The translations under genes were made by a program, and so were the position numbers. The notes beneath the pieces are model-generated. The model saw nothing but the letters and a program-made list of their open reading frames with translations, did no database searches and was not told the origin of the DNA. Shown in pieces: positions 24,927 through 62,854 of a stretch of DNA of 64,000 nucleotides. Origin of the DNA: Tuberibacillus calidus DSM 17572 (GTDB lineage Bacteria; Bacillota; Bacilli; Bacillales; Sporolactobacillaceae); contig NZ_AUMM01000005.1 in the NCBI RefSeq assembly GCF_000430685.1, positions 1 to 64,000 of the forward strand, given 5' to 3'. Every line of letters starts with the position of its first letter. Position 1 is the first letter of the stretch.

Positions 24927-24989
24927 TTATACACATGCTATATGGAAGAACTGAGGTTAAAAAGGCAAAAATCGTGAGCGGGCACGATG

Positions 24990-25150
24990 ACCATGCAGAA
25001 CTAGCCGTGAAAACGTCCAGAACGGCATTTATGCCCGTTTTTTAGCGAGGAAAGCCGCCTTGATCAGCATCTGTTCCAGAAAAACGAAAAATCTAGAGCT
25101 TACCATGAAAATCTGCCAAAGTGATGGTTAAGCCCGTTTTTTTTTTGCCC
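24990..25150 (+). repeat. Degenerate copies related to the 143-bp repeat family
   Basis: Two stretches (about 24990-25070 and 25085-25150) resemble the third unit of the array at 61.4-61.8 kb. Shared pieces are CAGAACT-N-GCCGTGAAAA with AACGGC and a T-rich end in the first, and CC-N-TGAAAAT-N-TGC with GTTAAGC and a T tract in the second. No gene is visible in the 347-bp gap between gerW and ytxK. Confidence 0.45.
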
Positions 25151-25245
25151 TAACAGGTGTCCGAGCAGCTCAAACAGTAAAATCTTTGAAGGAACCTCGT
25201 TTGTTGTATAAGATGGTGGTATAAGTTTTCATTGGAGGAATGGCC

Positions 25246-26220
25246 ATGGATGTCGTTCACGAATGGTTTGACGTATTGGACCGTTCAGCTGAGAAAATTG
25301 CCAAGCACACCGATGTCCCGTATCTAGAGGGACTTGTGATGACGGCAGACAACATCGTTTGGGAAAAGACAGACCCGGAGGCAATCGAGCGGGAATTGCA
25401 GACGCTTTACAAAAGGCTTTACCGTTTAGAAACGAGTGCTGAACAAGTAAGAAAAGCCCTTCAGCTTTCGATTCTCAAAGGGATGAAAAACGCGTCTCAA
25501 CCACAACATCAAATGACGCCAGATGCCGTGGCCTTATTTATAAGTTACCTCGTCAACAAATTCCCTTTAAAAGACGGTTGGACACTTTTGGATCCGGCAG
25601 TCGGAACAGGGAATCTCTTGACTTGTGTCTTGAATCATGCCCAAAAAAAGTACGGACAAGCCCAGGGTGTCGATGTTGATGAACTATTGATAAAACTTGC
25701 TCTATCTAGTGTCAATTTGCAGCAACACGATGTAGAGCTTTATCGCCAAGACAGTCTCCGGCCGTTACTCATCGACCCGGTAGATATTGTTCTATGTGAT
25801 CTGCCTTATGGTGTTTATTACGACAAGGAGAATGCCAAGCGCTTTAAGACGGCAACGACGGAAAAGCCTTTAAGCCAATTTTTGATGATCGAACAAGCAC
25901 TTTCGTATACCAAACCGGGCGGATTTCTTATTTTTATTATTCCGAACGATTTATTCGCGATGGACAATGACCGCTTGCTCCATGCGGTCATTCAAGAGGC
26001 GGGAATCGTCCTCGGGATTTTGCAACTTCCAAAAACCATGTTTCGTCATGCCGATTTTGCTAAAAGCCTTTTATTATTGCGCAAAAAAGGCGACGGGGTA
26101 AAAACTCCTCGGCAAGCATTACTAGCCGAATTGCCAAGTTTCAAAAACCGCGAGGCAATGACCGCGATGATGAGCCGCATAAATCAATGGTTCGGCGAAA
26201 ATTTTTCTGATGGTCAATAA
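25246..26220 (+). CDS. ytxK: Class I SAM-dependent methyltransferase (YtxK)
   Basis: A 324-residue protein whose fold resembles the N6-adenine DNA methyltransferase/HsdM class. The SAM site reads Leu-Asp-Pro-Ala-Val-Gly-Thr-Gly-Asn-Leu-Leu (about residues 118-128). The catalytic motif is Asp-Leu-Pro-Tyr-Gly at 185-189, equivalent to (N/D)PPY. An N-terminal helical region of about 85 residues precedes the catalytic part. The target of YtxK is unknown and no specificity subunit or endonuclease is nearby, so a restriction role is unlikely. ATG 25246 is placed 7 bp after GGAGG; the ATG at 25240 is too close. Confidence 0.88.
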   Translation: MDVVHEWFDVLDRSAEKIAKHTDVPYLEGLVMTADNIVWEKTDPEAIERELQTLYKRLYRLETSAEQVRKALQLSILKGMKNASQPQHQMTPDAVALFISYLVNKFPLKDGWTLLDPAVGTGNLLTCVLNHAQKKYGQAQGVDVDELLIKLALSSVNLQQHDVELYRQDSLRPLLIDPVDIVLCDLPYGVYYDKENAKRFKTATTEKPLSQFLMIEQALSYTKPGGFLIFIIPNDLFAMDNDRLLHAVIQEAGIVLGILQLPKTMFRHADFAKSLLLLRKKGDGVKTPRQALLAELPSFKNREAMTAMMSRINQWFGENFSDGQ

Positions 26221-28372: not shown

Positions 28373-28945
28373 GTGAATGAATAGACGCTCCTGTAAATGA
28401 AAAAAGCAAGGACAAAAGCTGTAAAAAAACTGGAGTATATGCGCAATTTCAGATCGATCGGTGACCAAAACTGAGCAAAAACCGATTTCTGCGCACTTTT
28501 GAGACTTCAGCAAGCGGAAAATGAGTAAACGCTCCAGTAATTGGAAAAACGAGTGTGAAAACTGTAAAAAACAGGAGTATATGCACAATTTCAGATCGAA
28601 AAGCCACCAAAAATGAGCACAAACCCGATTTCTGCGCAAATTTAAGGCTCTAGCGGGCGAAAAATGCGCAGACGCTCCAGTAAATGGAAAAACGGGTGTG
28701 AAAACTGTAAAAAACAGGAGTATATGCACAATTTCAGATCGAAAAGCCACCAAAAATGAGCACAAACCCGATTTCTGCGCAATTTTAAGGTTCAAGGTAT
28801 TGAAAAATGCGCAGACGCTCCAGTAAATGGAAAACCATAGCTTGATATGTAAAAAACTGGAGCGTATGCACAATTTCAAACCGAAAAGCGACCAAAAATA
28901 AGCACAAACCCAATTTTTACGCAAATTTTAGGCTCTAGTAAATCA
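28373..28945. repeat. Tandem array A: four units of a 143-144-bp repeat
   Basis: The marker GCTCC(A/T)G recurs at 28387, 28531, 28674 and 28817, giving periods of 144, 143 and 143 bp. Each unit starts with (T)GCGCAGACGCTCCAGT, runs through TGGAAAAA and TGTAAAAAACTGGAG, then has a locus-specific half containing CAATTTCA, GAGCACAAACC and GATTTCTGCGCA. CTCCAGT and ACTGGAG form an inverted repeat; in the last unit CGCTCCAGT (28816-28824) and ACTGGAGCG (28856-28864) match perfectly. The array fills the gap between the convergent ytkK and M24 peptidase genes. Confidence 0.9.
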
Positions 28946-58659: not shown

Positions 58660-58918
58660 CATAAAAACTGAAATCGCAACAAGCGATGACAGAGGACATG
58701 AATGTGTGAACCAGCTGTTGATAGAGAGGGAAGGGTTGGTGGAACTTCCTAGCAGCATCACAGATTTACCCCCTCTGAGCTGTGCCGGTGAACGGACGAC
58801 CTAGTAATCGGCAACGGAGAATCCGTTATCATACTTCGAGCCGTGATTTTTCACGGGAAGAAGGGTGGAACCGCGAGTGAGGCATTCGTCCCTTATTGGG
58901 ACGGATGCTTTTTATTTT
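58660..58918 (+). ncRNA. T-box leader sensing uncharged tRNA-Thr
   Basis: The T-box core AGGGTGGAACCGCG is at 58862-58875. Stem I contains the AGAGGGAAGG region and, opposite it, the specifier ACC (Thr) at 58768-58770. The UGGA of the T-box bulge fits a tRNA ending UCCA, as expected for tRNA-Thr. The terminator is GCATTCGTCCC (58882-58892) with GGGACGGATGC (58898-58908) followed by TTTTTATTTT. Uncharged tRNA-Thr should stabilise the antiterminator and switch on thrS. Confidence 0.93.
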
Positions 58919-60904: not shown

Positions 60905-61126
60905 CTTTTCCAAGCGACATGAAGCATGAAATACAAAAAATTCCCTTTAGACCTAATCCATTGAAATTTCAGAGAAATACTTGCCAACGATATCCTGAAA
61001 TAGTATTTTTGTATTATACTTTTTTCTATTCAAAACAGGACGTGTTAAGACGAGAAGAGAGAGCAGCTAAAAATGACAAGTTTGTTCGGAATATTCCTGC
61101 TTGCTAGATTAAAAGGGGGTTGTCAT

Positions 61127-61384
61127 ATGCTGTCTGAGGTTCTTAAAATCGGTGTCAAATTTATTATATCTGCGCTTGGCATTGTTTTTGTTGGTGCCTT
61201 GCCGAGTTTGTTTAACGGCATGTCCTTGGATTTTTCCAGTTATATTAATCAAATTGTAACAGCTTTTTCGCAATTGCTGAATCCGGGTCAGCTTGTTTAC
61301 ATAGAAAAATCCGGGGAGCGACCGTTATTTCCGCATCTCTTTGCCCCTTACTTTTATTCTATGATTGAGCTGGATGAGTCATGA
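61127..61384 (+). pseudogene. Truncated ABC transporter permease (OppB/DppB-like N-terminus)
   Basis: An 85-codon remnant with a good start (AAAGGGGGTTGTCAT before ATG). It has one N-terminal transmembrane helix (about 7-28) and an extracytoplasmic region ending Phe-Ala-Pro-Tyr-Phe-Tyr-Ser-Met, the style of the start of a DppB-type permease. The frame then runs straight into repeat array B: its last residues Glu-Leu-Asp-Glu-Ser and the stop are encoded by sequence repeated 143 bp later. The following complete gene is a DppC-type permease, so the lost part is probably the other permease subunit. Alternatively it is a genuinely short membrane protein. Confidence 0.6.
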
Positions 61385-61800
61385 AAATGCGCAGACGCTC
61401 CATAAACTGGAAAAATAAAGGCTAAATATGTAAAAAACTGGAGCATATACGCAAAATGAAGGCGGAATCGACCAGAAAGTGCGCAAAAACAGCATTTATG
61501 CGCATTTTTGAGCTGGATGAGTCATGAAAATGCGCAGACGTTCCATAAATTGAAAAAATCCTGGACTAATCTGTAAAAAACTGGAGCATATGCGCAAAAT
61601 GAAGGCGGAATCGACCAGAAAATGCGCAAAAACGGCATTTATGCGCATTTTTCAGCAGGCTGAGGCGCGAAAATGAGCAGACACCCCATTATTTGGAAAA
61701 AATCAAGTCTAAATTTAGGGGTATACCCGCAAAAATCTACCAGAACTCGCCGTGAAAATATGCAAAAACGGCGTTAAGCGCTTTTAACCGAGCGAAGATT
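61366..61800. repeat. Tandem array B: three units of a 143-bp repeat
   Basis: The marker GCTCCAT/GTTCCAT/ACCCCAT recurs at 61397, 61540 and 61683, exactly 143 bp apart each time. Units share GCGCAGACG-N-TCCATAAA, TGTAAAAAACTGGAGCATA and a second half with AAAATGCGCA and TGCGCATTTT, an inverted repeat forming a terminator-like hairpin. Units one and two are nearly identical; unit three is diverged. The first half matches array A; the second half is specific to this locus. The array occupies the whole gap between the truncated and intact permease genes. Confidence 0.9.
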
Positions 61801-61828: not shown

Positions 61829-62854
61829 ATGAAGGTTTTTAAGCAACCTATGTTTGTGATCGGTTTTTTATTTGTCGGACTGCTTCTTACCGCAAGCATT
61901 GTTTACCATTTTAAATATGACGATCATATTCCGAAGGCACCATTACTCTTGATGAAGGATGGGAAATTACTCGGACAGACGCCTTACAGTCCAGCCCTCG
62001 TTCCACCGGCGGGTACGGACCAGTCAGGACGGAACTATGGCGCCATGCTTTTAATTGGGGCAAAATATACCTTGGGAATCGGAATTTTAACGGCACTCCT
62101 ACGCGTTTTGTTTGGTGCGGTCCTCGGTACGATATACGGATTGTATTTTTATCGCTTTAAAGCCATTGTGACAGGGCTTCTTGATGGGTTTCATTATATC
62201 CCGCTCACGTTGCTTGCATATTTATTGTTAAGCCCGGTATTGATCATGGATTATACTACCGAAACGTTTGCATACTCATTCATGGCGCGTCTTTCATTCG
62301 AAGTGATTCTCTTAGCCGTTATCGCCTTGCCCGTCGTCTGCGTGAATATCGGCAACGAAATTGGTGAACACATGCATCGTGAATACATTATATCGGCAAA
62401 AGTATTGGGTGCTGGACGCTTACACATTCTTTTCAAACATATCATGCCGCATTTAATGCCTAAGATCATTTATATCTTGCTGCAGCAAACCGTCCAAGTG
62501 TTGATCGTTTTGGCTCATCTGGGGATTTTGCAATTATTTTTGGGTGGCACCTTAAAAATTGGCTATCCCCCGGATACGCTCTCACAAACCGGCGAGTGGG
62601 CGGGGCTCATCGGTCAAAACTATAAAGTCGTCGCCTCTGGCTTGCATACTTGGCTTATTTTTGCTCCCCTAATTTTATTAAGTTTATCCGTCCTCGCGTT
62701 TAGCTTTATGGCTGAAGGCTTTAAAAAGACAATGATGTCCATGGGGAGAAAGCGACCGGCGGGGAGCAAGCGTGTGGTGGATGAACGGCCACGAACATTT
62801 ACGGAAGATGACCTTTTTACACCAGTCAACCGTCGTCATGTCATGGTCGAGTAA
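61829..62854 (+). CDS. ABC transporter permease, DppC/OppC type
   Basis: A 341-residue inner-membrane permease of the peptide/nickel importer class. About six hydrophobic segments are visible (residues about 7-25, 72-98, 110-130, 145-178, 210-240 and 275-298). The EAA-type loop that docks the ATPase reads Glu-Tyr-Ile-Ile-Ser-Ala-Lys-Val-Leu-Gly-Ala-Gly, followed by His-Ile-Met-Pro-His-Leu. A basic hydrophilic tail ends the protein. AGAAGGGGG precedes the ATG. No ATPase or binding-protein gene is nearby and the partner permease upstream looks truncated, so function is uncertain. Confidence 0.82.
   Translation: MKVFKQPMFVIGFLFVGLLLTASIVYHFKYDDHIPKAPLLLMKDGKLLGQTPYSPALVPPAGTDQSGRNYGAMLLIGAKYTLGIGILTALLRVLFGAVLGTIYGLYFYRFKAIVTGLLDGFHYIPLTLLAYLLLSPVLIMDYTTETFAYSFMARLSFEVILLAVIALPVVCVNIGNEIGEHMHREYIISAKVLGAGRLHILFKHIMPHLMPKIIYILLQQTVQVLIVLAHLGILQLFLGGTLKIGYPPDTLSQTGEWAGLIGQNYKVVASGLHTWLIFAPLILLSLSVLAFSFMAEGFKKTMMSMGRKRPAGSKRVVDERPRTFTEDDLFTPVNRRHVMVE

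Follow-up and report, generated by a model that had tools for sequence, protein, structure and literature searches.

Clusters of A/T tracts spaced at the helical period have been described in bacteria and, in the excerpts cited here, are proposed to serve DNA compaction or to mark loop apexes (Tolstorukov 2005, as cited in PMC4761138; PMC3431218, PMC3940949). The helical phasing of A-tracts is known as a statistical feature of bacterial genomes, and the cited part of the same literature treats its role as open (PMC3431218). Several families of dispersed repeats are also on record. BOX elements of Streptococcus pneumoniae are described, in the portion of the source used here, as dispersed and composite, with a tandem module, special ends and an enrichment at gene 3' ends (PMC3049150). 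According to the abstract, STAR elements of staphylococci are interspersed intergenic direct repeats with sequences distinct per locus (PMC3532100), and the stem-loop families Bcr1, Bant-1 and Bhal-1 of Bacilli appear in the extract consulted as dispersed sequences with dyads, tens of copies and listed sizes of 72-167 bp (PMC2267715). Among DNA-binding proteins, the cited excerpt on RemA reports that it protects periodic 7-bp AT-rich repeats at 3-bp intervals and that its octameric rings may wrap DNA (PMC8481266). The present study concerns a family of 143-bp repeats, represented by two tandem arrays, A and B, in a 64-kb window, that is, the whole stretch of 64,000 nucleotides that was analysed. 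In open-access PMC literature, none of the matches listed describes this 143-bp family or helically phased intergenic satellites of Bacillales.

Arrays of the window and their genome-wide family

Array B occupies positions 61365-61785 on the + strand, as delimited by TRF, by matches of the R1 model (a sequence-only profile of 143 positions) and by a phasing scan. It comprises what is left of a preceding unit (61365-61382), followed by copy 1 (61383-61525; R1 match 61383-61522), copy 2 (61526-61668; R1 match 61526-61665) and a decayed and shortened copy 3 (61669-61785, the same as its R1 match), all on the + strand. TRF, run with a score of at least 50 and a period of at most 500, reported array B at 61365-61714 with a period of 143, 2.4 copies and a score of 521. 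Array A, recognised by the same three means, lies at 28376-28938 on the + strand and holds four copies, also on the + strand (R1 matches 28376-28508, 28517-28655, 28661-28796 and 28804-28938); TRF placed it at 28383-28938 with a period of 143, 3.9 copies and a score of 691, and found no tandem array besides A and B in the whole 64-kb window. A single decayed family copy was additionally matched by R1 at 24939-25055 on the + strand (E 5.8e-8). Within array B, copies 1 and 2 are 91% identical across 143 nt, and the step to copy 3 is 143 bp at columns 8 and 20 and 135-136 bp at columns 58-118. The original prediction had placed markers 143 bp apart twice in array B; the third marker is real, but the copy that carries it is degenerate and 7-8 nt shorter past the marker.

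The gene content of the window includes dnaE, a GerW-family sporulation gene and thrS, upstream of which a T-box leader stands at 58677-58896 (Rfam RF00230, 105.5 bits), and such a set would fit a spore-forming member of the Bacillales. The decayed copy at 24939-25055 lies behind the GerW-family (ytfJ) gene and is followed by a second degenerate piece, ending by eye in a long T-run. The ORF beside it (25240-26220) has a remote match to the DNA methyltransferase entry NF047738, at 39 bits against a cut-off of 720.

The repeat seen in arrays A and B was confirmed as real and genome-wide. BLAST against the own genome returned 60 matches, the best non-query one at E 3.2e-71, which excludes chance, and the R1 profile gave at least 156 matches at E<=0.01, antisense matches due to the dyads included. 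Family sites amount to at least 37 on the contigs plus the decayed copy, about 38 in all, a few of them single weak copies and up to five, at contig ends, possibly halves of the same arrays; they are mostly intergenic in a genome of 3.24 Mb in 81 contigs. At the level of sequence, the dispersal and tandem amplification of the family are established. Runs of N and contig ends fall inside arrays at L021, L025, L094 and the ends of contigs 15, 23, 42 and 49, and copy numbers at these loci are therefore uncertain. The right flanks of L011 and L012, which lie 3 kb apart on contig 32, seem related by eye, as if a block had been duplicated together with its array.

Unit anatomy, length and helical register

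The original prediction divided the unit into a first half common to both arrays and a second half that differs between loci and is alike within each, that is, into one conserved and one locus-specific module. Arrays A and B are indeed closer in their first halves (identity 0.62-0.83) than in their second halves (0.41-0.58), and second halves resemble one another inside array A (0.71-0.95) and between copies 1 and 2 of array B (0.91), but copy 3 of array B reaches 0.64-0.68 with its neighbours. The division into two modules of this kind was abandoned, since each half alternates between conserved and variable blocks, and since columns 94-107 and 112-127, which form the core of the second half, are conserved at every locus compared (0.84-0.85 between loci). 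A better genome-wide division has conserved blocks at columns 1-33, 47-77, 94-107 and 112-127, and variable parts in the form of spacers at columns 34-46, 78-93 and 128-142 and a 4-nt loop at columns 108-111. Between arrays A and B, the conserved blocks are 82% identical and the spacers 35%. The identities between loci and the indel counts were obtained from 62 units of at least 110 columns; alignment A1 holds 32 of the 33 non-redundant units, a shifted one from L003 having been dropped and one from L013 shortened.

Module 1 (columns 1-77) has the arms AAAATGMGCAnACGCTCCA and TGGAGCRTnTGCnCAnTTT with a middle of about 36 nt between them, module 2 (columns 94-127) has the form AAAATGMGCAAAAAC..ATTTATGCKCATTTTT, and the two imperfect dyads provide each unit with four TGMGCA boxes. 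In copy 2 of array B, on the + strand, module 1 (61526-61597) contains the imperfect dyad GAAAATGCGCAGACGTTCCA ... TGGAGCATATGCGCA, whose mismatched positions are those mismatched in most units, and module 2 (61619-61652) is the imperfect palindrome AAAATGCGCAAAAACGGCATTTATGCGCATTTTT. Spacers A (61559-61571, columns 34-46), B (61603-61618, columns 78-93) and C (61653-61668, columns 128-143) of this copy, likewise on the + strand, are variable in sequence and fixed in length.

Such dyads could belong to an RNA element, with tandem hairpins or terminators at transcript 3' ends. The arrays lie mostly downstream of co-oriented genes, module 2, when matched, folds to -11 to -12 kcal/mol and is followed by TTTTT, and three of seven folded right ends are terminator-like (-11 to -14). 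However, the mismatches of the dyads are fixed: among 77 of 111 model matches (those with at least 90 columns), Watson-Crick pairing occurred in 2/52 at positions 12.65, in 2/72 at 104.116 and in 9/54 at 8.69, and column pair 100.120 was C.T or A.G in 41/71 and Watson-Crick in 19/71, a mismatch with which the fold falls to about -6.6. The RNAalifold covariation term was 0.02, with a double change in 1 of 18 pairs; the T-box, away from the arrays, is the only Rfam match in the window; and a crude search already placed a terminator-like hairpin no more than 75 nt upstream of 8 of the 38 arrays. With covariation absent and mismatches conserved, the hairpin or terminator array was rejected as a candidate, and an RNA element is a very improbable source of the family. 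Columns 12 and 65, which almost never pair, hold mostly G with A, and T with C in several loci. At columns 100 and 120, the commonest state is one A-type and one C-type half-site.

A single main period applies throughout the genome, as had been predicted: steps between neighbouring units are 143 bp in 37 of 47 cases when measured at column 58, and in 37 of 42 when measured at column 20. Five of the ten other steps at column 58 differ by +-1, four (134, 134, 135 and 140) fall at last copies and one (51) is an artefact of overlap; at other columns, steps of 285, 320 and 205 span N runs. The 134-bp variant step belongs to the last copies of three loci. Module 2 is separated by 45 bp from the module 1 that follows it in 66 of 69 cases. 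The three spacers hold 943 mismatches to the consensus versus 10 indel events, or about 94 mismatches per indel event. Both counts derive from a profile alignment and are thereby biased towards mismatches; the anchor distances are independent of the alignment. Spacer identity between loci is 0.43-0.62. The constant anchor distances, the ratio of mismatches to indels and the low identity thus indicate that spacer sequence drifts and spacer length hardly does, period and register being held constant. Of 37 units, 28 had their nearest neighbour at their own locus, which agrees with local homogenisation within arrays and bears out that part of the original prediction. Neither a broad spread of periods nor second halves common to loci at random, the two outcomes named there as refuting, appeared.

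The proposed length constraint of about 14 helical turns was supported by several measures of phase. Across 34 gapless units from 16 loci, the set that also served the shuffle, gain, box and spacer tests, the AA/TT profile is dominated by harmonic 14 (143/14 = 10.21 bp) at 0.143, the next harmonic reaching 0.085; about ten A/T tracts at multiples of about 10.2 bp carry this harmonic 14. In the consensus, it amounts to 0.158 compared with 0.040+-0.021 in dinucleotide shuffles, 0 of 2000 of which reach 0.158, and for each of the 34 gapless units, 0 of 200 own shuffles match harmonic 14. The excess is weaker when the order of tracts and spacers is permuted, the observed value being reached in 12 of 3000 permutations for harmonic 14 and in 25 of 3000 for 9.5-11.5 bp. 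AA/TT power at 10.2 bp is 40.9 in 18 arrays of at least 250 bp versus 2.2 in 36 flank pieces. SS dinucleotides lie in antiphase to AA/TT (174 degrees), the G/C boxes TGMGCA and TCCA/TGGA lie in antiphase to the A/T tracts, and seven hand-picked conserved boxes have a common phase (R 0.93; p 8e-4 when the period is not fixed beforehand). Moreover, A/T content across the 45 spacer columns can be predicted from the phase of the core columns alone (r 0.52, p 0.0005; positive in 16 of 16 loci), and only the 14th of harmonics 9-20 does so, the signal coming partly from A/T-conserved columns (42-45, 84 and 136) and the 16 loci sharing ancestry. In a 300-bp scan of the whole window with a threshold of 14, only three places exceeded the threshold: array A with 38.9, array B with 29.7 and the decayed copy with 15.5. 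The power of the decayed copy alone means little, because individual array-free windows of 300 bp in other genomes reach 15-18.

Wedge models, with wedge values taken from general background knowledge, predicted a net bend of 116-140 degrees per 125 bp in 22 arrays (at least 200 bp, without N) versus 43-46 degrees in shuffles and 41-43 degrees in flanks, and the predicted bend lay above all 30 own shuffles in 18-21 of the 22 arrays. We infer from these models that array DNA may be bent in solution. At 10.5 bp per turn, 143 bp would correspond to 13.6 turns, so coherence over several units hinges on the actual helical repeat. A case for selection of new in-phase AA/TT steps looked suggestive at first and was rejected once tract neighbours were left out, newly gained in-phase steps showing no significant excess without the positions beside existing tracts (r 0.17-0.20, p 0.15).

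Array ends, neighbouring genes and other genomes

The left end TGTAAAAAACTGGAGC stands beside unrelated flanks, and the right end ..TCCATAATnTGGAAAA recurs, at many loci by eye, and the outer ends TGGAGC..TGCGCA and TGMGCA..GCTCCA form imperfect inverted repeats of about 20 bp. A common right-end module, GAACGAGCCAAGAAAACGYGCAAAA..TTAACCCCGTTTTTT, is clear in six loci (L003, L019, L027, L085, L087 and L088) and partial in some more of 12 loci picked by eye; many arrays end without it. In L085, L087 and L088, the right-end module comes after a middle about 9 bp shorter.

At the site of array B, a truncated OppB-like permease gene (61073-61384, + strand) is represented by an ORF of 103 aa, the first ~100 of ~300 codons; the corresponding frame in relatives is mostly 285-326 aa, so the ORF of the window is its first third. 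The OppB-like homology stops at about 61363-61372, and array B starts at 61365. The next gene encodes an OppC-like ABC permease (61829-62854, + strand); in each of the seven loci of relatives that were examined (7 of 7), its homologue adjoins the OppB-like gene. Since about 200 codons cannot fit between array B and this gene, the rest of the OppB-like gene is taken to be missing. The locus is the nearest thing to an empty site. A second OppB-like homologue, on contig 27 of the own genome, has a stop inside the matched stretch.

The inverted ends, their placement beside unrelated flanks, the common right-end module and the apparent loss of two thirds of a permease gene where array B sits are all consistent with a MITE- or BOX-like element that is mobile, non-autonomous and purely selfish, bears imperfect terminal inverted repeats, spreads to the ends of genes and expands by unequal exchange, the curvature aiding insertion or being incidental. 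However, eight loci with both ends gave no sign of a target duplication (longest common word, mean 4.62 versus 4.36 across loci, p 0.31). Among the matches listed for the own genome, the inverted-end pattern occurs in arrays except for one exact site and five sites with one mismatch, so no autonomous partner was seen. In a REPIN/RAYT system, a RAYT-type Y1 transposase would be linked to the palindromes; here the sole Y1 transposase (Y1_Tnp, a 140-aa frame on contig 11) lies about 14 kb from the nearest array among the matches listed. A transposon with an autonomous partner or a target duplication was set aside, none having been seen among the pattern matches listed or in the eight loci, and the phase and length kept in drifting spacers are left unexplained by a mobile element, which makes a purely selfish origin rather unlikely. 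The lone exact inverted-end site outside the arrays looks by eye like coding sequence.

Genes, taken as open frames of at least 110 codons by a naive caller, showed that the arrays lie mostly downstream of genes. Where a left-hand gene was called (34 cases), it is oriented like the array in 29, and the median distance from a co-oriented upstream gene to the array is 104 bp. Gene contexts were '++' in 19, '+-' in eight, '--' in three and '-+' in two cases, with six open; with frames from 70 aa they were '++' in 19, '+-' in seven, '--' in four and '-+' in three. Local GC skew in the orientation of the unit is positive in 28 of 38 loci, and transcription and replication are therefore inseparable as causes of array orientation, which may follow replication rather than transcription.

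R1 with stricter filters was applied to 58 genomes, namely the own genome and 57 related ones (25 belonging to its taxonomic family and none to its genus), and the family was not found in the 57 related genomes; weak R1 matches in G050 and G053 were rejected as family members, not being 143-bp arrays of this family. Plasmid and phage records gave no blastn match to the 143-bp family and viral contigs did not contain the exact core pattern, so a phage or plasmid origin was rejected, these collections possibly omitting records of the own or very near genomes. In genome_contigs, to which the same reservation applies, the exact core pattern had 10 matches in scattered organisms versus about two expected, by pattern match alone.

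The pattern GCAAAAAC..GCAAAAAC was rejected as a marker of a wider class, its occurrence in 36 of 98 genomes being mostly chance-like. TTTATGMGCAAAAAC was present in 22 of 299 genomes, mostly as single sites, with arrays around the match only in G050; one locus of G143 with TTTATGMGCAAAAAC (L108) has a short 20/40-bp array elsewhere in the locus. BLAST of a G050 array against 199 genomes was strong only in G050 and weak in 11 others, the own genome included. In G050, five arrays made of boxes of the TGAGCAAAAAC type, which are similar to module 2, advance in steps of 20-21 bp and have their peaks at 10.14-10.46 bp; two of the arrays (L124 and L125) stand at contig ends and are possibly one array. 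Long, mostly intergenic arrays of TTTATGAGCAAAAAC / TGAGAAAA boxes were seen in G050 at L153:2772-3542, L154:3450-4466, L119, L113, L124, L125 and L032; their steps are about 20.5 bp and they are phased at 10.1-10.5 bp, L154:3450-4466 partly overlapping an open frame. A sample of tandem arrays covered 50 stretches (999 kb) from 27 genomes. G030 carries an intergenic array of 52 bp x 8.8 between convergent genes, phased at 10.4 bp and unrelated in sequence (L149:9132-9595). G033 carries an intergenic array of 193 bp x 4.3 with AGCGGAAT dyads, phased at 10.15 bp, with 20/41-bp arrays beside it (L183:5827-6660), and a 41-bp array of G042, phased at 10.1, overlaps an open frame. Several non-coding arrays of the same sample lacked phasing at about 10.2 (those with units of 135, 131 and 81 bp and one with 52 bp), and another 52-bp array (10.4, power 11) and the 20/41-bp arrays of G033 (power about 5) were weakly phased. 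Outside the lineage of the 143-bp family, phased arrays with other units are present in three and perhaps four lineages of the order.

These arrays bear on a further explanation, a neutral satellite whose constant length would reflect recent spread and homogenisation and whose helical phase would be inherited from a founder. The homogenisation is real, the copies share a founder, decayed copies exist and the gain test is not significant, all as such a satellite would have it. On the other hand, spacers that are only 43-62% identical between loci keep their A/T phase and accumulate mismatches far more often than indels, and the phasing recurs in other lineages with other unit lengths and sequences. 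A neutral satellite is on this evidence improbable.

A possible architectural role and comparison with known systems

Considering these results, we favour, with a probability of roughly 55%, a lineage-specific dispersed element that is amplified in tandem and locally homogenised, and whose 143-bp unit carries a curved-DNA pattern of 14 x 10.21 bp with an architectural role. Spacers would keep their length and A/T phase as their sequence drifts, and the register would be kept because a protein wraps the DNA or binds one face of it. Arrays behind genes may then act as architectural sites, as loop apexes or as points of supercoil or nucleoid-protein nucleation. Wrapping of the arrays by a nucleoid protein is probable on this reading, and RemA and LrpC-type octamers, for which DNA wrapping has been proposed in Bacilli, would be the first candidate wrappers. 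HU is another candidate binding protein for the arrays. RemA-like genes (PF04025) are present in 9 of 9 genomes tested, the own genome included, and do not discriminate, because they also occur in genomes in which no phased array was seen in the sampled stretches; the own genome has one AsnC/Lrp-type gene. Both the RemA-like and the AsnC/Lrp-type genes are candidates.

A broader proposal, which is possible and at present tentative, is that Bacillales keep lineage-specific intergenic satellites of whole helical turns because a DNA-wrapping protein packs on them, the sequence being free and the register not. Unit lengths are compatible with whole turns, 14 x 10.2 = 143 here and about 2 x 10.28, 5 x 10.4 and 19 x 10.16 elsewhere. 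If true, such satellites would be a bacterial counterpart of nucleosome-positioning DNA. The findings suggest that some spacer DNA of free sequence and fixed length is kept for its shape, and a family that holds phase and length amid spacer drift offers a natural set of units for testing phase, bend and protein binding and hints at a reason for the unit lengths seen in some intergenic tandem repeats of Bacillales.

By the partial descriptions available, the 143-bp family resembles BOX in its dispersal, its tandem module and its position at gene 3' ends, and it may share the composite layout with special end modules. It is set apart from BOX, again by description, in that BOX elements are described as RNA stem-loops, whereas the 143-bp dyads keep mismatches and the register and unit length are conserved. 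The sequence of STAR differs from that of the 143-bp family. Both are intergenic direct repeats with locus-distinct sequences, but STAR belongs to a different organism group, and its abstract makes no mention of helical phasing (PMC3532100). The likeness to Bcr1, Bant-1 and Bhal-1, which are also dispersed, with dyads and tens of copies, is drawn from the description in the extract alone. Among the RemA and LrpC wrapping sites of Bacillus, the RemA footprints resemble the arrays in being reported as periodic AT-rich repeats; unlike the arrays, the wrapping sites lie upstream of promoters and, in the excerpt cited, are not described as dispersed tandem repeats (PMC8481266). Like the A-tract clusters, the arrays have A/T tracts spaced by the helical period. 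Unlike the clusters and genome-wide signals, as far as the cited excerpts describe them, these tracts belong to a repeat family of 143-bp, 14-turn units with conserved boxes, arranged in tandem at about 38 sites. What is known from those excerpts is phased A-tracts as a statistical signal, and what is described here is a repeat family that bears them.
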